NCBI GenBank assembly: GCA_004297225.1
Contig: SCUI01000004.1
Coordinates: 102,724-166,723 of the forward strand
Direction of reading: 5' to 3'
Source: Lysobacteraceae bacterium
GTDB lineage: Bacteria; Pseudomonadota; Gammaproteobacteria; Xanthomonadales; Xanthomonadaceae
DNA length: 64,000 nt
Shown here: positions 4,501 to 54,931 of the stretch, piece by piece
How the letters are laid out: every line of letters starts with the position of its first letter
Position numbering within the stretch: the first letter of the stretch is position 1
Notes under the pieces: generated by a model
What the model was told of the DNA's origin: nothing
The model's database searches: none
Seen by the model: the letters and a program-made list of their open reading frames with translations, nothing else
Made by a program: the position numbers and the translations under genes

Positions 4501-6927
4501 ATGGCGCCATTCGGACCGGCCGCGGCGGCGTCGTTGCTGGCGGGCGTATGCGCCTGCCTGGCGTTGCCGGCGTTGCCAAGCACCGCGTGGCTCTGGCTTG
4601 CCGGCCTGGCGGGCGCGTGGATGTGGTGGCGTGCCACTGCGTGGCGCTTGCCTGGGCCGATGCTGTGCGGCTTCGCCCTGGCGGGACTGCATGCCGGCGT
4701 TGCGCTGGCCGATCGCTTGCCGACAGTGCTGGAAGGCGCCGATATCGTCGTCACGGGTCGGGTCGTCCAGTTGCCGGAGCGTGAGCCTGGCCGCGTGCGA
4801 TTCCGCTTCCGCGTGGATGACGACAACCGGCAACTGCCGCCGCTGAAGGACAAGCTGCTGGACCTGTCGTGGTACGAGGAGCGGTGGAGTCGCGGCGCAA
4901 GCCGCGACATCACTCCCGGCTCGCGCTGGCGACTCACCCTGCGCCTGCGCGCACCACGCGGCCTGCGCAATCCGGGGACCATCGATACCGGGAAGCGGGC
5001 GCTGGCCGAAGGCATCGCCGCAACCGGTTACGTGCGCGATCCGCAAAGCGCCGCACGGTTCGCGCCCGCGGCCGGCATCGACGCCTGGCGCCACCGCATG
5101 TCCGCGCGGATCGCCGGCACGGTGTCGTTGCCATCGCACCGCTTCCTGCAGGCATTGGCGCTGGGCGACACCCGGTCGCTCACCGACGCCGACTGGGCCA
5201 CGCTGCGCGCCTCCGGGCTGACCCACCTGATCGCGATCTCGGGCTTCCACGTCGGCCTGGTCGCGGGCTTCGCGGCGTTGCTGGCGGCGGCGATCTGGTG
5301 GTTGTTCCCGGCACTCGGCCGACGGTTGCCGCGCATGCAAGCCGCCGCCATCGCCGCGCTGCTTGGAGCCAGCGGCTACGCCGCGGTCGCGGGCTTCGCG
5401 CTGCCGACCGTGCGCACCGTGCTGATGATCGGCCTGGTCGTCTGCGCGCGCCTGCTGCGTCGCGCGCAACACATGGGTGATGCGCTTGCATTGGCCGCCA
5501 TCACGACCTTGCTGGTGGATCCGCTGGCGGTGCTGTCGGCCGGCTTCTGGCTCAGTTTCGCCGGTGTCGCCTGGTTGCTCTGGTGCCTGCCGGGCAGCGG
5601 CGAACGCGGATGGCGCGCGACGTTGCGCGGATTCCTCGGCGCGCAGGCCGTCGCCACCATCGGCCTGCTGCCATTCACCGTGATCCTGTTCGGCCAGGCC
5701 TCGCTGGCCGGGCCGTTCGCGAACCTGCTCGCGATCCCGTGGTGGAGCCTGGTGGTCGTGCCGCTTGCCTTGTTCGGCACCGGCATGGAGTGGCTGCACG
5801 CGGGCGCGGGCGGCTGGCCGTGGCGATTCGCCGCGCAGGCCTTCGACCTGGCCTGGCCATGGTTCGAACGCATCGCCGCCAGTCCGCTGGCGTTCTGGTG
5901 GCTGCCCGAACCGGCGTGGTTCGCCTTGCCGCTCGCGATCCTCGGCGGCTTCTGGCTGCTGCTGCCGCGCGGGCTTCCCGGCAAGCCGCTGGCGCTGCTG
6001 TTGTGGTTGCCGCTGCTGTGGCCGCAGCGCGGCCTGCCGGCGCACGGCGCGGCGGAACTGGTGGTGCTCGACGTCGGCCAGGGTCTGTCGGTGCTGGTGC
6101 GCAGCGCCGGGCATGCGCTGCTCTTCGACATGGGGCCGGGCCAGCCGGAAGGCTTCGACGCCGGCGCGTCCGTGGTGGTGCCGGCGCTGCATGCGCTGGG
6201 CGTGCGGCGGCTGGATGCGATGGTGGTGAGCCACGCGGACAACGATCATTCGGGCGGATTCGGTTCGGTGGTGGCGGCGTTTCCGCCGGCGATCGTGTTC
6301 CAGCCGGAGGGCATGGAGAAGAGCGTCGCGGCTCGTGCCGCTCCCACAAGGGGGCCCATGCGCGAGTGCACTGCGGGATTGCACTGGAGCTGGGACGGCG
6401 TCGACTTCCGCTTCCTGCATCCGCCGCGCTGGTTCCCGTACATGGACAACGATTCCTCGTGCGTGCTGCGGATCGCGGCCGGCGGGCGGGTGGCGTTGTT
6501 GCCCGGCGACATCGGCAAGGTGGTGGAGGAGGGCCTGGCGAAGCGGCAGGGCGACGCGATCCGCGCCGACGTCGTGGTGCTGTCGCACCACGGCAGCCGG
6601 CATTCGTCGACGCCGGCGTTCGTCGAGGCGACGCAGGCACGGTGGGCACTGGTGTCGGCGGGGTATTCGAACCGGTTCGGGCATCCGGACGGGGAGGTCG
6701 TGGCGCGCTGGCGGGCGTCGGGGGCGGAGGTGCCGAATACCGCCGAGACCGGCGCGCAGCGGCTGCTGCTGGATGCGAACGGGGTCACGTTCATGGGTGA
6801 ACGGGTGCGACGGCGGCGCTTGTGGGATGCGGCCGCGGCTTGCGCCGCTCCCACAAAGGGGCTTGCCGGGCGGGTTATCCTTCCTCCCGGAATCGGATCG
6901 AGGGGTGGCGCGTGCTGGAATTGGTGA
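4501..6927 (+). CDS. comEC: DNA internalization-related competence protein ComEC/Rec2
   Basis: GLTHLIAISGFHVGLVAG motif plus C-term metallo-beta-lactamase domain (SHADNDHSGG); start uncertain (ORF opens at 4426). Confidence 0.92.
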   Translation: MAPFGPAAAASLLAGVCACLALPALPSTAWLWLAGLAGAWMWWRATAWRLPGPMLCGFALAGLHAGVALADRLPTVLEGADIVVTGRVVQLPEREPGRVRFRFRVDDDNRQLPPLKDKLLDLSWYEERWSRGASRDITPGSRWRLTLRLRAPRGLRNPGTIDTGKRALAEGIAATGYVRDPQSAARFAPAAGIDAWRHRMSARIAGTVSLPSHRFLQALALGDTRSLTDADWATLRASGLTHLIAISGFHVGLVAGFAALLAAAIWWLFPALGRRLPRMQAAAIAALLGASGYAAVAGFALPTVRTVLMIGLVVCARLLRRAQHMGDALALAAITTLLVDPLAVLSAGFWLSFAGVAWLLWCLPGSGERGWRATLRGFLGAQAVATIGLLPFTVILFGQASLAGPFANLLAIPWWSLVVVPLALFGTGMEWLHAGAGGWPWRFAAQAFDLAWPWFERIAASPLAFWWLPEPAWFALPLAILGGFWLLLPRGLPGKPLALLLWLPLLWPQRGLPAHGAAELVVLDVGQGLSVLVRSAGHALLFDMGPGQPEGFDAGASVVVPALHALGVRRLDAMVVSHADNDHSGGFGSVVAAFPPAIVFQPEGMEKSVAARAAPTRGPMRECTAGLHWSWDGVDFRFLHPPRWFPYMDNDSSCVLRIAAGGRVALLPGDIGKVVEEGLAKRQGDAIRADVVVLSHHGSRHSSTPAFVEATQARWALVSAGYSNRFGHPDGEVVARWRASGAEVPNTAETGAQRLLLDANGVTFMGERVRRRRLWDAAAACAAPTKGLAGRVILPPGIGSRGGACWNW
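4884..4908 (+). repeat. REP family A, degenerate, inside comEC
   Basis: GTGGAGTCGCGGCGCAAGCCGCGAC. Confidence 0.55.
6323..6350 (-). repeat. REP family A inside comEC
   Basis: GCGTCGCGGCTCGTGCCGCTCCCACAAG. Confidence 0.9.
6820..6856 (-). repeat. REP family A with truncated opposite copy, comEC 3' end
   Basis: TTGTGGGATGCGGCCGCGGCTTGCGCCGCTCCCACAA. Confidence 0.85.
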
Positions 6928-7520
6928 AGGCGGGCGGGTGGCCGATGATCCCGCTGCTGCTGCTGTCGGCCGCGGCACTGGCGATCATCGTCGAACGCTT
7001 CTGGTCGCTGCGGCGGATCACCGTCATGCCGCCGGGCCTGGGCGACGAGGTGCGCGCGTGGGTCGCACGCGGCGGCGCGCTGGATCCGGGCCACATCGAG
7101 CAGTTGCGGCAGACCTCGCCGCTGGGCGCGTTGCTGGCCGCGGCGCTGGACGCCCGCACCCGGCCGCGCGAGCAGATGCGCGAGCGCATCGAGGACGCCG
7201 GGCGCCACCTCGTCCACCACCTGGAACGCTACCTCAACAGCCTCGGCACCATTGCCGCGGCCGGACCGTTGCTGGGCCTGTTCGGCACGGTCGTGGGCAT
7301 GATCCAGATGTTCATGGGCATCCTCGACCACGGCGTCGGCGACGTGAACCAGCTGGCCGGCGGCATCGGCAAGGCACTGGTCTGCACCGCCACCGGCATG
7401 ATCGTCGCGATCCCCGCGCTGATGTTCCATCGCTATTTCCGCGGCCGCATCGCCGGCTACATCGTCGAGATGGAGCACGAGGCCACCCAGTTGCTGGACA
7501 CGCTCGACCCGGTCCGCTGA
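6912..7520 (+). CDS. exbB: MotA/TolQ/ExbB proton channel family protein
   Basis: GTIAAAGPLLGLFGTVVGMIQMF motif; GTG start inferred. Confidence 0.88.
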   Translation: MLELVKAGGWPMIPLLLLSAAALAIIVERFWSLRRITVMPPGLGDEVRAWVARGGALDPGHIEQLRQTSPLGALLAAALDARTRPREQMRERIEDAGRHLVHHLERYLNSLGTIAAAGPLLGLFGTVVGMIQMFMGILDHGVGDVNQLAGGIGKALVCTATGMIVAIPALMFHRYFRGRIAGYIVEMEHEATQLLDTLDPVR

Positions 7521-7533
7521 GCGATCGCCCCCG

Positions 7534-7977
7534 ATGCGCATCCGCGACTTCCGCGCCGACGACAGCCCGCAGATCGACCTGGTCCCGTTGATCGACGTGG
7601 TGCTGTGCCTGATCGTGTTCTTCGTCGTCACCACCACCTTCGACACGCGCTCGGTGCTGGAACTGGAACTGCCGCGCGCCCAGGGCGAAGCGGCGAAGCA
7701 GCAGACCCGGGCGCTCGACATCCTGGTCAACGCGGACGGCCGTTACTTCGTCGGTGACCGCGAGGCATTGCGCACCGATGTCGAATCTCTCAAGCGCACG
7801 ATCCTGGAAGTCGGCGGCGACGATCGCGAACGCGGCGTGCTGCTGCGCGCCGACGCGCGCACGCCACACCAGGCGGTGGTGACCGCGCTGGACGCGCTCG
7901 GCCAGCTCGGCTACCGCAACATTTCCATCGGCACCGCGCCCGATCCGGCGTCGCCGGCCCCGGGTCCCGCGCGATGA
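7534..7977 (+). CDS. exbD: biopolymer transporter ExbD/TolR
   Basis: PQIDLVPLIDVVLCLIVFFVVTTTF motif; follows exbB. Confidence 0.93.
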   Translation: MRIRDFRADDSPQIDLVPLIDVVLCLIVFFVVTTTFDTRSVLELELPRAQGEAAKQQTRALDILVNADGRYFVGDREALRTDVESLKRTILEVGGDDRERGVLLRADARTPHQAVVTALDALGQLGYRNISIGTAPDPASPAPGPAR

Positions 7978-9728
7978 GCGACCACGCCCCGGCCTGGCCG
8001 ATCTACAAGCGCCTGCTCGGTTACGCCGGCCGCTACTGGCCGCTGCTCACCGCCGCGTCGATCGGCATGGTGTTCGAGGCGCTGGCCGGCGGCGCGTTCG
8101 TGCAGTTGATGGACCCGCTGGTCAACCGCGGTTTCGTCAACCCCGAGCCGAAGATGGCGGTGCTGCTGCCGCTGGCGATCATCGCCCTGTTCATCATCCG
8201 CAGCATCGCCACCTTCGTCACCGACTACGGCATGGCCCGCGCCGGCCGCAGCGTGGTCCGCGACCTGCGCCAGGAGATCCTGGGCAAGTACCTGCGCATG
8301 CCCAGCCGCCATTTCGACACCGAATCGGTGCCGGCGATGGTCAGCCGCCTCAATTTCGACACCGAGCAGGTCACCCAGGCCGGCACCGACGCGGTCAAGG
8401 CGATCGTCACCGACGGCCTGACGATCGCCTACCTGCTCGGCATCATGGTCTACACCAGCCTCAAGGTGACCTTCGCGATGCTGCTGATCACGCCGCTGAT
8501 CGGCGTGCTCGTCTGGTACGTGGGCAAGCGCTACCGGCGCATCAGCCGCGGCATCCAGGAAGGCATGGGCGACCTGGCGCAGACCGCGGAGCAGTCGCTG
8601 GCCGCGCAGCAGGACGTCAAGGTCTACGGCGCGCAGGGCTTCGAGCTTTCGCGCTATTCGAAGCTGGTCGACCGCATGCTGCGGCTGAACATGAAGGTCG
8701 AGACCACGCGCGCGGGCAGCTCGGCGCTGGTGCAGATGCTGGCGGCCTCGGCGCTGGCGGCGATCGTCTGGGTCGCCACCCGCGAGGCGCTGCAGGGCCG
8801 GATCGACGCCGGCGAGTTCGTTGCGCTGATGACCGCGATGATGGCGATCATCCCGTCGCTGCGCCGGGTGACCAACGTGCAGGCGGTGATCGGGCGCGGC
8901 GTCGCCGCGGCGGAGCGGATCTTCGCGGTGCTGGACAGCGTGGAGGAGGGCGACGCCGGCAAGGTCGCGCTGTCGCGCGCCCGCGGCGAGCTCGTCTTCG
9001 ACCGGGTCAGCCTGCGCTACGCCGAGGACGACGGCGATGCGCGGCATGCGTTGCGCGACATCAGCTTCAGTGCGCGGCCCGGGACGGTGACGGCGATCGT
9101 CGGCCGCTCGGGCAGCGGCAAGACCTCGCTGGTGCGGCTGGTGCCGCGTTTCTACGAACCGTCCTCCGGGGCGATCACGCTCGATGGCGTGCCGTTGCGC
9201 GACTACCGGCTCGCCGACCTGCGCCGCCAGATCGCGCTGGTCGGGCAGCGGGTGATGCTGTTCGACGACAGCATCGGCGCCAACATCGCCTACGGCAGCG
9301 AGGCTTCGCCTGATGCGCTGCGGGCCGTGGCCGAAGCGGCGAACGCGTGGGAATTCATCGAGCGCCTGCCGCAGGGGCTGGACACGCCGATCGGCGAGAA
9401 CGGCTCGCTGCTGTCCGGCGGCCAGCGCCAGCGCCTGGCGATCGCGCGCGCGATGTTGAAGGACGCGCCGATCCTGATCCTGGACGAGGCGACCGCGGCG
9501 CTGGACACCGAGTCCGAGCGGCTGGTGCAGGACGCGCTCAACCGGCTGATGCCCGACCGCACCACGCTGGTGATCGCGCACCGGCTCTCGACCATCGAGC
9601 ACGCCGACCAGGTGCTGGTGCTCGACCAGGGCGAGCTGGTGGAGCAGGGCACGCACGCCGAGCTGCTCGCGCGCGGCGGCCTGTACGCGCACCTGCACCG
9701 CATGCAGTTCCGCGAAGCGTCGCCATGA
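7974..9728 (+). CDS. msbA: lipid A export permease/ATP-binding protein MsbA
   Basis: ABC exporter with [18 protein letters not shown] Walker A and [15 protein letters not shown]; followed by lpxK. Confidence 0.95.
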
Positions 9729-10756
9729 GCGCGGGCCGCGCGCCGCCACCTTGGTGGTACAACCCCGCGCGCAGTCCACCCTTGACCGCGCGACTGCTGG
9801 CAGCACTCTACGGCGCCACCATCCGCGTGCGCAGCGCCCTCTACGATCGCGGTTGGCTGAAAACCCACAAGGCCGGCGCGCCGGTCGTCATCGTCGGCAA
9901 CCTCGTTGCCGGCGGCAGCGGCAAGACCCCGCTGGTGATCGCGCTGGTGGAGCGGCTGCGGGCCGCCGGGCGCCGGCCAGGCGTTGCCACGCGCGGCTAC
10001 GGCCGCGAAGACGCCGACAAGGCGCTCTGGGTGGAGGCGGACACCGATCCCGTCATGTCGGGCGACGAACCGTTGCTGATCGCGCGCCGCACCGGCGCGA
10101 AGGTGCGCGCGGATCGCGATCGCGTCGCCGCCGCCCGCGCGCTGGTCGCCGCCGGCTGCGACGTCATCGTCTGCGACGACGGCCTGCAGCATTACCGCCT
10201 GGCCCGCGACCTCGAGATCGAAGTCCTCGACGCCGCCCGCCGCCACGGCAACGGCCGCCTGCTCCCCGCCGGCCCGCTGCGCGAACCGGTCGAACGCGCC
10301 GCCCGCTGCGACTTCCACGTGGTGAACACCGGCTCGCCGGACATTCCCCTCGTGGGAGAGACCCCCCTTGTGGGAGCGGCGCAAGCCGCGACGCTTTTCG
10401 GCGAATGGCCCATGCACCTCATCGCCGATCAGGCCACCCCGCTGCTCCGCGGCCGCCCGGTCCCGCTCGACCAGTTCGCCGGCCACCGCGTCCACGCCGT
10501 CGCCGGCATCGGCGATCCCGAACGCTTCTTCGCCATGCTCCGCGCCCGCGGCATCGCCGTCGTCCCGCACGCCTTCCCCGACCACCACCGCTACACCGCC
10601 GAGGACTTCGAGTTCGGCAGCGACCTGCCGGTGCTGATGACCGAGAAGGACGCGGTGAAGGCGACGCCCTTCGCCACGCCACGCTTCCACGCCGTCCCCG
10701 TCACCGCCCGTCTGCCCGAATCCTTCTGGGTCTCGCTGCTGGACAGGATCGCCTGA
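9725..10756 (+). CDS. lpxK: tetraacyldisaccharide 4'-kinase
   Basis: [25 protein letters not shown]-loop; [20 protein letters not shown]. Confidence 0.95.
10370..10394 (+). repeat. REP family A inside lpxK
   Basis: GTGGGAGCGGCGCAAGCCGCGACGC, preceded by a partial CTCGTGGGAGAG. Confidence 0.92.
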
Positions 10757-16074: not shown

Positions 16075-16626
16075 TTGGTGTTGCTTCCGCCCGAGCGGCT
16101 CACGTCGCATCATCGGCTGGACGAGTTCGCATGCCGCCATGAGTCGCTGGCACGCTGGTTGCGGCAGCGGGCCCTGAAGAACCAGGCGCAGGGCGCCAGC
16201 AACTGCTTCGTCGTTTGCGATGCGTCGAGCAAGCGCAAACCCGTCGTCGGGTGCTACGCCCTGGCTGCCGGGGCGCTGGAACACGCCAGCGCCACCGGCA
16301 GGCTTCGCCGCAACATGCCCGACCCGATCCCGGTTGCCGTCCTCGGCCGCCTTGCCGTGCATTCCGACTGGATGGGTCAGGGAATCGGTGCCGGCATGCT
16401 GAGGGATGCGACGCTTCGTTGCCTGAGGGCCGCCAGGGACGGCCCCGGCATCCGCGCCATCCTCTGCCATGCCATCGACGAGGACGCCCGCGCGTTCTAC
16501 CTGCATCATGGTTTCGTGCAGTCGCCTGTCGCGGAGTGGACGATGATGCTCGGGTTGATGGGCTTCGCAGCTGCCGCGGAGGCGCCAGCCGACCATGGGT
16601 CGGATCTACGGAGGGGGCGGGATTGA
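16075..16626 (+). CDS. GNAT-family toxin (TacT/AtaT-like)
   Basis: LGRLAVHSDWMGQGIGAGML acetyl-CoA loop, ARAFYLHHGF C-term motif; TTG/GTG start. Confidence 0.82.
   Translation: MVLLPPERLTSHHRLDEFACRHESLARWLRQRALKNQAQGASNCFVVCDASSKRKPVVGCYALAAGALEHASATGRLRRNMPDPIPVAVLGRLAVHSDWMGQGIGAGMLRDATLRCLRAARDGPGIRAILCHAIDEDARAFYLHHGFVQSPVAEWTMMLGLMGFAAAAEAPADHGSDLRRGRD
16588..16609 (-). repeat. REP-like family B at GNAT 3' end
   Basis: GCCGACCATGGGTCGGATCTAC. Confidence 0.75.
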
Positions 16627-51169: not shown

Positions 51170-51192
51170 AGCCGACCATGGGTCGGCTCTAC
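51170..51192 (-). repeat. REP-like family B next to split tRNA-Val
   Basis: AGCCGACCATGGGTCGGCTCTAC. Confidence 0.88.
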
Positions 51193-51196
51193 GATC

Positions 51197-51241
51197 TGGT
51201 GGGCGGTGCAGGGTTCGAACCTGCGACCCTTGCCGTGTGAA
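51197..51241 (-). pseudogene. 3' half of split tRNA-Val(CAC) gene A
   Basis: Minus strand TTCACACGGCAAGGGTCGCAGGTTCGAACCCTGCACCGCCCACCA; 5' half lies at 54892-54931. Confidence 0.9.
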
Positions 51242-51361
51242 CCGACTAGGCACACGTCTGAGCACTGCCTTCTATGCGACGGGCTTATCGTTCAATAAGT
51301 TAGAAGGCTCCTTGCCAGATCTGAGAAGAAATGCGCACACCCCCGCGCACCCCAATCGTAA

Positions 51362-51371
51362 CCCAAAATGG
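51362..51371 (+). promoter_or_regulatory. candidate operator half-site CCCAAAATGG upstream of XRE regulator
   Basis: Same 10-mer recurs at 51681-51690; here inside a larger AACCCAA...TTGGGTT inverted repeat. Confidence 0.5.
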
Positions 51372-51402
51372 TATAAACCGGATTGGGTTGTAGCCTGCGG
51401 CA

Positions 51403-51663
51403 GTGCCGCGTCTCAACGCCCCCGAATACCAGCTTCTCAGAAGGCTTCTGGTCGATGCCCGGGAGAGCGCGGGACTGTCTCAAGCAGAAGTTGCAGGCCG
51501 CTTGGGCCGGGCCCAAACGTTCGTTTCGAAGTACGAGCTCGGGGATCGGCGCCTCGACGTGATTGACTACCTGCAGGTTTGCGATTCCATCGGTGCTGAT
51601 CCGATCGCTCTGCTCAGGACCGTTTGGGTAAAGACCAAATCCGGCCGAGCCCTGGCCGGTTGA
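51403..51663 (+). CDS. XRE-family HTH regulator
   Basis: ARESAGLSQAEVAGRLGRAQTFVSKYELGDRRLDVIDYLQVCDSIG. Confidence 0.9.
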   Translation: MPRLNAPEYQLLRRLLVDARESAGLSQAEVAGRLGRAQTFVSKYELGDRRLDVIDYLQVCDSIGADPIALLRTVWVKTKSGRALAG

Positions 51664-51676
51664 CCCCTTCACAGGC

Positions 51677-51695
51677 TCACCCCAAAATGGGGTGA
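51677..51695 (+). promoter_or_regulatory. perfect palindrome TCACCCCAAAATGGGGTGA, candidate XRE operator
   Basis: 8-bp arms with 3-nt spacer in the intergenic gap before 51708. Confidence 0.6.
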
Positions 51696-51707
51696 ATGGG
51701 GGGCGTC

Positions 51708-52184
51708 ATGAGCGGGAGCGCAGCTTTTTCAACTGAGTGGATCGCGGCCATCCAGTGTGACGGTCGGGGCGAGTTCCGCGATACGCAAACGCCGGGACTA
51801 GTGCTTCGCGTCGGGCCAGATTCTAAGGTCTTCTACCTCTATAGGCGGGTTCGAGAGCGAGGCCGGAGTGTTGAACGCAAGTTTCGTCTTGGTGACGCTA
51901 ATCAACTAACGCTGGCGGCCGCTCGTCGCTTGGCGATCAAGCTCTCCGCAGCGGACTCTCCAAAAAAGGGTAGGGGGGCCATTGACCTCCAAGTGGCGCC
52001 AGTCCGGGCTGACGAGGAGATGCTCACGACCGCGGAGGCCGCCCGACTCACGAAGATGAGTTGTGCCTGGTTTGAGCGAAAGCGATGGGAAGGGGAGGGG
52101 CCGCCCTACTACCGTGCGGGGCGTGCGGTGCGCTACATGCGGAGCGAATTGCTGGAGTGGTGGAAGCGCCGGGGTGGCCTATAA
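51708..52184 (+). CDS. fusion of integrase DUF4102-like arm-binding domain with HTH_17 (AlpA/excisionase-like) domain, no recombinase catalytic domain
   Basis: FRDTQTPGLVLRVGPDSKVFYLYRRVRERGRSVERKFRLGDANQLTLAAARRLAIKL followed by LTTAEAARLTKMSCAWFERKRWEGEGPPYYRAGRAVRYMRSELLEWWKRRG. Confidence 0.8.
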   Translation: MSGSAAFSTEWIAAIQCDGRGEFRDTQTPGLVLRVGPDSKVFYLYRRVRERGRSVERKFRLGDANQLTLAAARRLAIKLSAADSPKKGRGAIDLQVAPVRADEEMLTTAEAARLTKMSCAWFERKRWEGEGPPYYRAGRAVRYMRSELLEWWKRRGGL

Positions 52185-52188
52185 CAAG

Positions 52189-52213
52189 AAAGGGCGCCGA
52201 AGCGCCCTTTTTG
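52189..52213 (+). terminator. Rho-independent terminator
   Basis: AAAGGGCGC CGAA GCGCCCTTT hairpin plus T-run. Confidence 0.8.
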
Positions 52214-52220
52214 CTTGAAT

Positions 52221-52295
52221 TGGTGGGCGATGTAGGCTTCGAACCTACGACCCCGTCCGTGTGAAGGACGTGCTCTACCCCTGAGCTAATCGCCC
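52221..52295 (-). tRNA. tRNA-Val(CAC), intact copy B located inside the element
   Basis: 75 nt GGGCGATTAGCTCAGGGGTAGAGCACGTCCTTCACACGGACGGGGTCGTAGGTTCGAAGCCTACATCGCCCACCA; all stems pair. Confidence 0.95.
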
Positions 52296-52438
52296 GAAAT
52301 CGCTGGGGTGCGCACTTTACAGTCCGCGTTGGCACGACGCAAGTCCACGCAAGCCGGCTACCGTCCCCAGATGCCCCATGGCCCGGTTCTGGGCCCAGTT
52401 TCGTTGTTCATTGGGGTGGGGAAAGGGGGGGGACAGGA

Positions 52439-54724
52439 ATGCCCGGCACATTCGTTCAGAAAATTTCCAAGACCGTCGGATTGGGCGTTCTAAAGGATTG
52501 CCCACCGCCGCCTGCAGTGCAGCTTCGGCGTTACAACTTGATCTACGGCTTCAACGCCAGCGGCAAAACGACCCTTTCTAGGGTCTTTGCGAGCCTTGGG
52601 AAAGGGGTCTTAAGTCCAAAGCTACCCGTTGGAGCGGCTTTCGAGATTGAGCTTTCCGATGGGACGAAAATAAAGAGTGGGGGCGATCTGGGCCTCCTCA
52701 CGAAGAGGCTTCTTGTTTTCAACGGAGATTTCCAAGACGAGAACCTGCGCTGGAAAGATGGGACAGCTAGTCCAGTCTTCTATATTGGGAGAGAGCAGGC
52801 TGACCTTGCACAAAAGCTTGGCGAAGTCGAGAAAGCAAAGTCAGAGAAGGAGTTAAGTCTTCGAGTCGCAGAAGAGAAGACTCGTGGCGCGGAAGGTTCC
52901 CAGGCCACCTTCAAGCGTAATACTGCACGCCTCATTGCCGAGCAGTTGGGGCTCGGGAGAAAGTACGACGCCACGAAGCTCGCCGCTGACTACGACTCAA
53001 ATTCGGACTTTTCACTGCTCTCTGCAGAAAAGGTAGAAGGTCTCAAACAACAAATATCGCAGCAAGAAGCATTACCCAAAGTCGATCCGTTGCCGAACAC
53101 CAAGGTGGGGATCGAAAAGCTCGGAGCCGATAGCCGCGAATTACTGGAGACAACCTTGGGTAAGGTGGCTCTGGCAGACCTCGCGGGACATGACGGAATG
53201 CTCAGTTGGATACGAGCCGGCCTAACCTACCACGAGGCCAACTCCCTCGAGAGCTGCTTGCTTTGTGGGAATGATCTGACTCAGTCTAGAAAGGAAGCTC
53301 TCGCATCAGCGATCGATAACCGGTTCGATAGACTGATTGCGGATCTGGCTTTCTGCGAAAGCGATTGCGAAAGCAAAGTGCGCCTGGTGCAGGCTTTGCT
53401 AGCTAAGATTCCATCCCCAAATGACGTTTCCCCCGAGAATCGGGGGGCGTTTGAGGTCCACGCCAAATCGCTTCGGGTGTCACTTGAGAAAGTTCCTCCA
53501 ATATTGGAGGAACTGAGGAATCTTTTGGCTGCAAAAAGGGCGCATCCGAATCAAGCAATGGCTATTCCCGAGAATGTTGCCGCCCCGTCTCTCGCTGCGA
53601 TCGAATCTGATGTCCAAAAGGCCATAGATGGAGTAAACGCTGTTTTGGGTGCCCACAACCAAGTCTTTGACGAGTTTGAGGAGCGAAAAAGGGAGGCCGC
53701 CGATCGGCTCAAGGAGCATTACCTTGGGTCAGCAAATGAAGAATACAGGGCCCATGAACGCACAGTCGTCCAAGCCCGCACTGCCGTGCTTGACCTCCGG
53801 ACTGAGGTTGCACGGTTTTCGGCGGAAGTGGTCGAGCTAAACAAGAAGATTAGGGCCCACGGGCCTGCAGCTTCAGTTATCACTGCAATGATCCAGAGCT
53901 ACTTGGGTCACAAAGAACTCTCGATTGTCGCGGTTGATTCAGGCTATCAGCTCGTGCGCAATGGATCTGTAGTAAAGGATTCACTTAGCGAAGGGGAAAA
54001 GACTGCTATTTCGCTGTGTTATTTCCTTTCGACTTTGGAGGCAGAGGGGCGGTCCAAAAAGGATCTCATTGTCGTAATCGATGACCCGATTTCCAGCTTG
54101 GATACGAGGGCACTGAACTACGCCTTCGCTATCATCAAGTCAGCACTTGGAGAGCCGTGCCAATTGATCCTGTTGACGCACAATGTCAACTTTATGAACG
54201 AGGCGAAGAAGTGGCTTCGGAATCGAGCAGATGCGACAAAAGGTGATCCAACTGCCTCATTATTGTTCCTGGATGCCATCCGCTCTGAAAACGGTGCCCG
54301 CACAACTATTCTCACGGAACTCCCGAAATACATACGGGACTACGAATCCGAATATCACTACTTGTTCCATATGATCCTAAGGTTTTCCCGGGCAAAGCCA
54401 GAGGATCGGGAAGGGTATTTCGTGATGCCGAATGCGCTTCGAAAGGTGCTAGACGTTTTTCTAGCGTTCAAGCACCCCGGCGCAAACGGGTTAAGTAGCA
54501 AGGTTGAGGCGATCCCGGCTCATGATCTTGGGATAGATCCCGCGCGGATTGCGGCTCTCGATCGCCTAGCTCAAGTCGAGAGTCATGCTGACAGTCTGGA
54601 CGACCTAATTGCCTTCTCGTCGATGACAATGGAGGAGGTCGTCGCAGCTACAGAAGCGCTACTGGAGTTGATGGAGAAGTATGATCAAGAGCACTTTAAG
54701 CGGATCTGTAAGATCTGTGCCTAG
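52439..54724 (+). CDS. RloC/PrrC-like AAA_13 family ATPase (candidate anticodon-nuclease-type defense protein)
   Basis: Walker A GFNASGKTTLS, FNGDFQDENL, CxxC hook ESCLLCGND in coiled coil, DSLSEGEKTAISLCYFL signature, LIVVIDDPISSLDT Walker B/D-loop, LLTHNVNF H-loop, C-term MPNALRKVLDVFLAFKHP. Confidence 0.8.
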   Translation: MPGTFVQKISKTVGLGVLKDCPPPPAVQLRRYNLIYGFNASGKTTLSRVFASLGKGVLSPKLPVGAAFEIELSDGTKIKSGGDLGLLTKRLLVFNGDFQDENLRWKDGTASPVFYIGREQADLAQKLGEVEKAKSEKELSLRVAEEKTRGAEGSQATFKRNTARLIAEQLGLGRKYDATKLAADYDSNSDFSLLSAEKVEGLKQQISQQEALPKVDPLPNTKVGIEKLGADSRELLETTLGKVALADLAGHDGMLSWIRAGLTYHEANSLESCLLCGNDLTQSRKEALASAIDNRFDRLIADLAFCESDCESKVRLVQALLAKIPSPNDVSPENRGAFEVHAKSLRVSLEKVPPILEELRNLLAAKRAHPNQAMAIPENVAAPSLAAIESDVQKAIDGVNAVLGAHNQVFDEFEERKREAADRLKEHYLGSANEEYRAHERTVVQARTAVLDLRTEVARFSAEVVELNKKIRAHGPAASVITAMIQSYLGHKELSIVAVDSGYQLVRNGSVVKDSLSEGEKTAISLCYFLSTLEAEGRSKKDLIVVIDDPISSLDTRALNYAFAIIKSALGEPCQLILLTHNVNFMNEAKKWLRNRADATKGDPTASLLFLDAIRSENGARTTILTELPKYIRDYESEYHYLFHMILRFSRAKPEDREGYFVMPNALRKVLDVFLAFKHPGANGLSSKVEAIPAHDLGIDPARIAALDRLAQVESHADSLDDLIAFSSMTMEEVVAATEALLELMEKYDQEHFKRICKICA

Positions 54725-54891
54725 GGCTCTGAAGATTCAGTCCTGTCCGCCGAAAGGTCTTTCATGCGGACCCTAGAAAGGCGGGCGATCCCTGACCCAT
54801 CCATGACCCAGATCACCGGGGACTCTGCCGGAAGTTGCTAAGAGCGAGGTCTGGCGCGACGTTTGTGCCGCCACTCAGTTGTGAGTGAGTC

Positions 54892-54931
54892 GCCGTGTGA
54901 AGGCAATGCTCTACCGCTGAGCTAACCGCCC
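54892..54931 (-). pseudogene. 5' half of split tRNA-Val(CAC) gene A
   Basis: Minus strand GGGCGGTTAGCTCAGCGGTAGAGCATTGCCTTCACACGGC. Confidence 0.9.

Follow-up and report, generated by a model that had tools for sequence, protein, structure and literature searches.

A complete tRNA-Val(CAC) gene as probable replacement cargo on a small integrative element that splits the host tRNA-Val(CAC) gene

The window, by which we mean the whole 64,000-nt stretch analyzed here, contains a single tRNA-Val(CAC) gene according to ARAGORN. This complete gene (52221-52295, minus strand), hereafter tRNA B, is 75 nt long with its encoded CCA counted in, and scores 63.9 bits (E 9e-13) against Rfam RF00005. Both programs bear out a sequence-only reading of this DNA, which had described an intact 75-nt tRNA with a CAC anticodon; the acceptor stem (GGGCGAT/ATCGCCC), the anticodon stem (CGTCC/GGACG) and the T stem were also as that reading had given them. 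A terminator-like hairpin lies downstream of tRNA B (52189-52210, minus strand). On the other side, a presumed promoter region was read by eye (52296-52355, minus strand; TTGCGT ... TGTAAAGT, with a GC-rich discriminator), and a simple promoter scan returned no minus-strand sigma-70 site at B. To the eye, the layout of this promoter-like stretch appears to resemble that of the stretch preceding the host gene, A.

Gene A is a second tRNA-Val(CAC) gene, now present as two halves on either side of tRNA B. Its 5' half (nt 1-40) is found at 54892-54931 and its 3' half (nt 31-75) at 51197-51241, both on the minus strand and both 100% identical to the intact A of relatives. The halves overlap by 10 bp, and this att-like core, TTCACACGGC, forms a direct repeat at both ends of the inserted element, inside the anticodon loop of A. 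The left copy occupies 51232-51241 (minus strand; GCCGTGTGAA when read on the plus strand) and the right copy 54892-54901 (minus strand). Joining the flanks at the core, which reconstructs the empty site, gave a perfect tRNA-Val(CAC). As the locus now stands, ARAGORN detected no tRNA at either element junction, so the host tRNA has not been rebuilt; the 5' half of A reaches 20.4 bits where the Rfam RF00005 cut-off is 29. Since both halves are undecayed, a recent insertion is suggested. Scattered through the window is also a repeat of ~24 bp containing CCGACCATGGGTCGG, with one copy at 51170-51193, a few bases off the 3' half of A, and others near 16587, 18783, 19371, 24432 and 55971.

An alignment of A and B showed that 63 of 75 positions match. 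Ten of the 12 differences, as read from this alignment, form five compensatory double changes in stems (one pair in the acceptor stem, three in the anticodon stem and one in the T stem), and the 7-nt anticodon loop TTCACAC is the same in both genes. That the differences are mostly compensatory stem changes indicates that B kept folding, and judged by its sequence B looks like a functional tRNA. The sequence-only reading had also placed the core within B, which holds in part: 9 of the 10 bases are kept (TTCACACGGA), but the full 10-base core is not. No homologue of B above 89% identity was found in 397 genomes of the family, and none above ~84% in phage and plasmid records.

The element itself is 3,660 bp long when one copy of the core is counted in (51242-54901, its ends set by the tRNA halves), and this exact element is known from one genome. 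Its G+C content is 55%, as compared to 64% and 71% in the flanks. Pfam searches of the element showed three genes, among which were neither a phage structural gene nor a catalytic integrase. A gene for an XRE-type regulator (HTH_31/HTH_3; 51403-51663, plus strand) starts with GTG and has homologues in sister elements. It is followed by a gene for a fusion of Arm-DNA-bind_3 and HTH_17 domains (51696-52184, plus strand), in which Pfam detected no catalytic integrase domain. The HTH_17 part is 65-71% identical to its counterparts in sister elements, which carry this part alone, without the arm-binding domain. The fusion protein is possibly an excisionase (recombination directionality factor), and it might bind to the arm sites of a helper integrase. 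An operator-like site, CCCAAAATGG, is located between the two genes (51681-51690), and another is present at 51362-51371. Its palindromic core, CCAAAATGG, also occurs near the XRE/HTH_17 genes of sister elements L025 and L026; found near these genes in three otherwise different elements, it is probably the XRE operator. When the ends of the three small elements were searched for common integrase arm sites, no shared 9-mer emerged, just CCAAAATGG. A second gene for an arm-domain (P4-type) integrase is present ~79 kb away on the same contig, where it adjoins a guaA-like gene and not a tRNA gene.

The third gene of the element, a candidate defense gene, encodes an AAA_13 ATPase of 761 aa (52439-54724, plus strand; Pfam, PADLOC PDC-S06), and it and tRNA B are divergent neighbors. 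Its C-terminus (54470-54724) contains an R-x6-H motif that aligns with six relatives, and from this conservation the ATPase may be an HEPN-type RNase. PrrC and RloC are anticodon nucleases, and the sequence-only reading had called this gene anticodon-nuclease-like. The AAA_13 assignment and the R-x6-H motif agree with that description; in PADLOC, PDC-S06 is the best model with 474 bits and PrrC a weak one with 39.7 bits. No type I restriction-modification gene was found inside the element, and no solved structure matched the ATPase by sequence. Eight relatives of the ATPase in the family had no tRNA beside them within the ~1.5-kb flanks examined.

The ancestral state of the site could be read from relatives. 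Other members of the genus have intact CAC genes of the A type, in most cases a single one, and nothing in their genomes comes nearer to B than ~84%. In G008 (L007), an Mrr_cat gene directly adjoins the intact A, with PHA-granule, serC and aroA genes further out, as is the case to the right of the element in the window. Near the intact A of G001 (L008) is a sugar epimerase gene known from the left flank. The presence of intact A and the absence of B at this site in relatives imply that A is ancestral and that B came with the insert. The complete tRNA-Val genes in the window genome, counted by sequence search, are GAC (C27), TAC (C14) and B; no CAC gene besides B was found by this search, although the draft, with 229 contigs and 91% completeness, may lack another one that the genome has. 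The count that the sequence-only reading had proposed thus gives B as the sole CAC gene found here, while relatives have A as theirs and lack B. That reading had further held that B would count as ancestral if strains lacking the ATPase and the split had it in the same syntenic position; relatives were searched for such a case, and the cargo proposal came through unrefuted.

The same design recurs in sister elements, which were traced via their HTH_17 and XRE genes within one bacterial family, a sampling from which no frequency is derivable. Outside the window, the replacement arrangement was seen for Arg(CCT) in Luteimonas colneyensis, for Thr(TGT) in three genomes and for Thr(CGT) in two, and in every case the anticodon of the cargo tRNA equals that of the broken host gene. 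In L. colneyensis (G337, L025), a 3.05-kb element interrupts the host tRNA-Arg(CCT), the halves of which share a 17-bp repeat; the element contains XRE, HTH_17, C5 DNA methylase and HNH endonuclease genes together with a complete, different tRNA-Arg(CCT). Joining this site gives a perfect tRNA-Arg(CCT), a gene that is uninterrupted in genus mates. In the Thr(TGT) cases (G353, G403 and G093), a second tRNA-Thr(TGT), complete and different from the host gene, comes ~110 bp after the 5' half of the latter, together with an XRE gene; genus mates have intact Thr(TGT) genes. The matching 3' half is on the same contig in G093, where the element spans ~11.9 kb and encodes an arm-domain tyrosine integrase adjoining this half; it is on a different contig in G353, and a search for it in G403 did not find it. 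A tRNA-Thr(TGT) identical to the cargo of G353 and G403 was also noted at G218:C1:2071607 (L122/L047), beside an XRE gene and without an adjacent host half, and this is possibly the donor lineage of their cargo tRNA. Cargo genes differ between the elements: where the window element has the ATPase, its sisters have a restriction-modification pair, a gene resembling nucleases or genes of phage-like character.

Thr(CGT) replacement was observed in G151 and G074. In the latter (L126, G074:C77:22000-36000, ~6810-10500), tRNA-Thr(CGT) replacement has left a stack of three nested generations, with a similar leader before each: the host 5' half has decayed, cargo tRNA 1 has in turn been split at the loop that was hit in the host gene, and cargo tRNA 2 is intact. 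A decayed host half together with an intact newest cargo tRNA is what would be expected after replacement took over.

Ordinary islands that rebuild their target were found as well. An integrase-bearing element in G006 (L001, 4390-15161) sits at the same tRNA-Val(CAC), where the gene has been regenerated and a 51-nt 3' fragment displaced. In G391 and G080, the ordinary form occurs at tRNA-Thr(CGT), with inner ends that resemble the ends of the Thr(TGT) elements. In Pseudoxanthomonas yeongjuensis (G086, L026, 6232-8966), a GmrSD-type (GmrSD_N) restriction gene is part of a 2.6-kb XRE/HTH_17 element, and the half that this element carries to regenerate tRNA-Val(CAC) is the 5' one, not the 3' one. 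Among related elements, some thus rebuild their target and others replace it.

Taken together, these observations favor the reading that tRNA B is cargo replacing the destroyed host tRNA, as in tRNA-dependent lysogeny, on a small integrative defense element, and we give this a probability of about 0.87. The replacement proposal of the sequence-only reading is strengthened by relatives that have an intact A and lack B, and by the recurrence with other tRNAs in which the anticodon always matches. According to this model, the element would have recombined via the 10-bp core into the anticodon loop of the only tRNA-Val(CAC) found in the host, probably through a P4-type, arm-binding tyrosine recombinase. 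Since a core of this length does not suffice to restore the gene, A would be left as two dead halves. The complete isoacceptor B, which comes with a promoter-like region and a terminator of its own, would then take over decoding, which presumes that B is transcribed, charged and needed. Given that the element lacks an integrase of its own, it may have been moved by an integrase acting in trans or may since have lost its own, and the HTH_17 protein could help in excision.

A different role for B, also raised from the sequence, is that of an immunity part of the ATPase, that is, a cleavage-resistant or decoy tRNA set against a tRNA-cutting RNase next door. The Pfam assignment to AAA_13, the C-terminal R-x6-H typical of HEPN RNases, the PrrC score in PADLOC, weak as it is at 39.7 bits, and the divergent placement of B and the ATPase are all compatible with such a pairing. 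Against it, A and B share the loop TTCACAC, which is where anticodon nucleases cut. PDC-S06 moreover lies far above PrrC, no tRNA is present in the ~1.5-kb flanks of the eight ATPase relatives from the family, and the same tRNA arrangement occurs elsewhere with a restriction-modification pair, nuclease-like or phage-like genes in place of the ATPase. With identical loops, other cargo in the sisters and tRNA-free surroundings of the ATPase relatives, the resistant-substrate claim is weakened and we regard it as very unlikely.

It could also be argued that B was the target of a first insertion and was regenerated in the process, or that it is left from an old tandem tRNA-Val array, with the XRE/HTH_17 and ATPase units sharing B as an attachment site. 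The 9 of 10 core bases kept in B would fit this, as would the nested insertions into cargo tRNAs in G074 and the target-regenerating island at the same tRNA in G006. Against this origin stands the fact that both A halves are 100% identical to the A of relatives whereas B differs in its 5' as well as its 3' half, so that B was not built from either half of A. Furthermore, no relative has a tandem CAC pair that includes B, and the L. colneyensis cargo tRNA likewise lies within a single pair of ends. The tandem array suggested by the sequence-only reading consequently fares poorly as the source of B, no CAC pair of this kind being found in relatives, while its idea of tRNAs as recombination sites does apply to the cargo tRNAs of G074; as a whole, we judge this history to be very improbable. 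An assembly artifact or chimera that joins two loci was considered too, the genome being a draft of 229 contigs and the join falling within a repeated tRNA loop. The contig (C116) nevertheless extends well past both junctions (window 102724-166723; further matches at 233.6 kb), both flanks match the neighborhood of the intact A in relatives, and the same architecture is present in independent, better-assembled genomes, which leaves this explanation barely credible.

How strongly a host would depend on a replacement tRNA is likely to differ between targets. GUG is the commonest Val codon, making up 45% in ten flanking genes, and Val(TAC) can usually read GUG. In the drafts of two relatives, G003 and G129, listed as 99-100% complete, no tRNA-Val(CAC) was found, reflecting either a gap or a real loss. 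Decoding of GUG by Val(TAC) and these drafts without a CAC gene suggest that tRNA-Val(CAC) may not be strictly essential. For ACA, standard rules provide no other decoder than Thr(TGT), and a pattern search of G403, G093 and G353 turned up no further intact Thr(TGT) gene. The need for the replacement would on these grounds be stronger in the Thr(TGT) elements than in the Val(CAC) element.

A wider proposal, which we advance tentatively and hold to be more doubtful than probable, is that the tRNA serves these islands both as a means of addiction and as a landing site that renews itself, so that defense genes become fixed in the chromosome and accumulate in stacks. If this is true, each insertion kills a host tRNA gene and supplies the sole working copy; the host halves then decay, making loss of the island costly or lethal, and the new tRNA becomes the attachment site of the next island. 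Apart from this proposal, the G074 stack shows a stepwise swap of host tRNAs for element tRNAs and a route by which a mobile element may become hard to lose. Replacement of this kind also explains why some annotated genomes contain tRNA halves or a single-copy tRNA gene that looks out of place. The present data put it in the Xanthomonadaceae, on small non-phage defense islands and at four tRNA species, beside islands that rebuild their targets.

With respect to known systems, the ATPase shares with PDC-S06, PrrC and RloC the combination of an AAA_13 ATPase with a C-terminal R-x6-H. It is unlike the PrrC system in that its best PADLOC match is PDC-S06 and that the element has no type I restriction-modification gene. 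Ordinary tRNA-targeted islands of the Islander class carry one half of the tRNA gene, by which the gene is rebuilt (PMC4383910). The window element resembles them in having a tyrosine-recombinase target at the anticodon-loop region and a displaced tRNA fragment that marks an end, but it differs in leaving A split and in bringing a whole separate gene that deviates in both halves.

The closest parallel is tRNA-dependent lysogeny, a term introduced for actinobacteriophages by Guerrero-Bustamante and Hatfull in 2024 (PMC10865867). These phages, for example Fionnbharth with its tRNA-Lys-TTT, integrate at a core of ~10 bp, and the phage tRNA of the same isotype was shown to be required (PMC10865867). 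How far this strategy spreads beyond actinobacteriophages was posed as a question in that same year (PMC10865867). Common to both systems are a short core within the host tRNA gene (~10 bp, and 17 bp in L. colneyensis), the lack of gene reconstruction and a complete tRNA of the same isotype on the element. On the other hand, the carrier in the window is a 3.66-kb non-phage element without an integrase in a Gammaproteobacterium, and the Xanthomonadaceae cases differ in their Val(CAC), Arg(CCT), Thr(TGT) and Thr(CGT) targets and in the nesting in cargo tRNAs. The requirement for the tRNA, shown in the phages, is here inferred from sequence. By analogy, the window element is one that appears to work like tRNA-dependent lysogeny without being a full member of it, as it has no integrase of its own and is not a phage. 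Finally, in prophage-related insertions of Sinorhizobium meliloti a foreign isoacceptor has taken the place of the host tRNA gene (PMC11476347). Those insertions are prophage-related, whereas the Xanthomonadaceae elements are small XRE/HTH_17 defense islands, but in both cases the inserted element brings the replacing isoacceptor, and S. meliloti, as a member of the alpha class, also belongs to the Proteobacteria.
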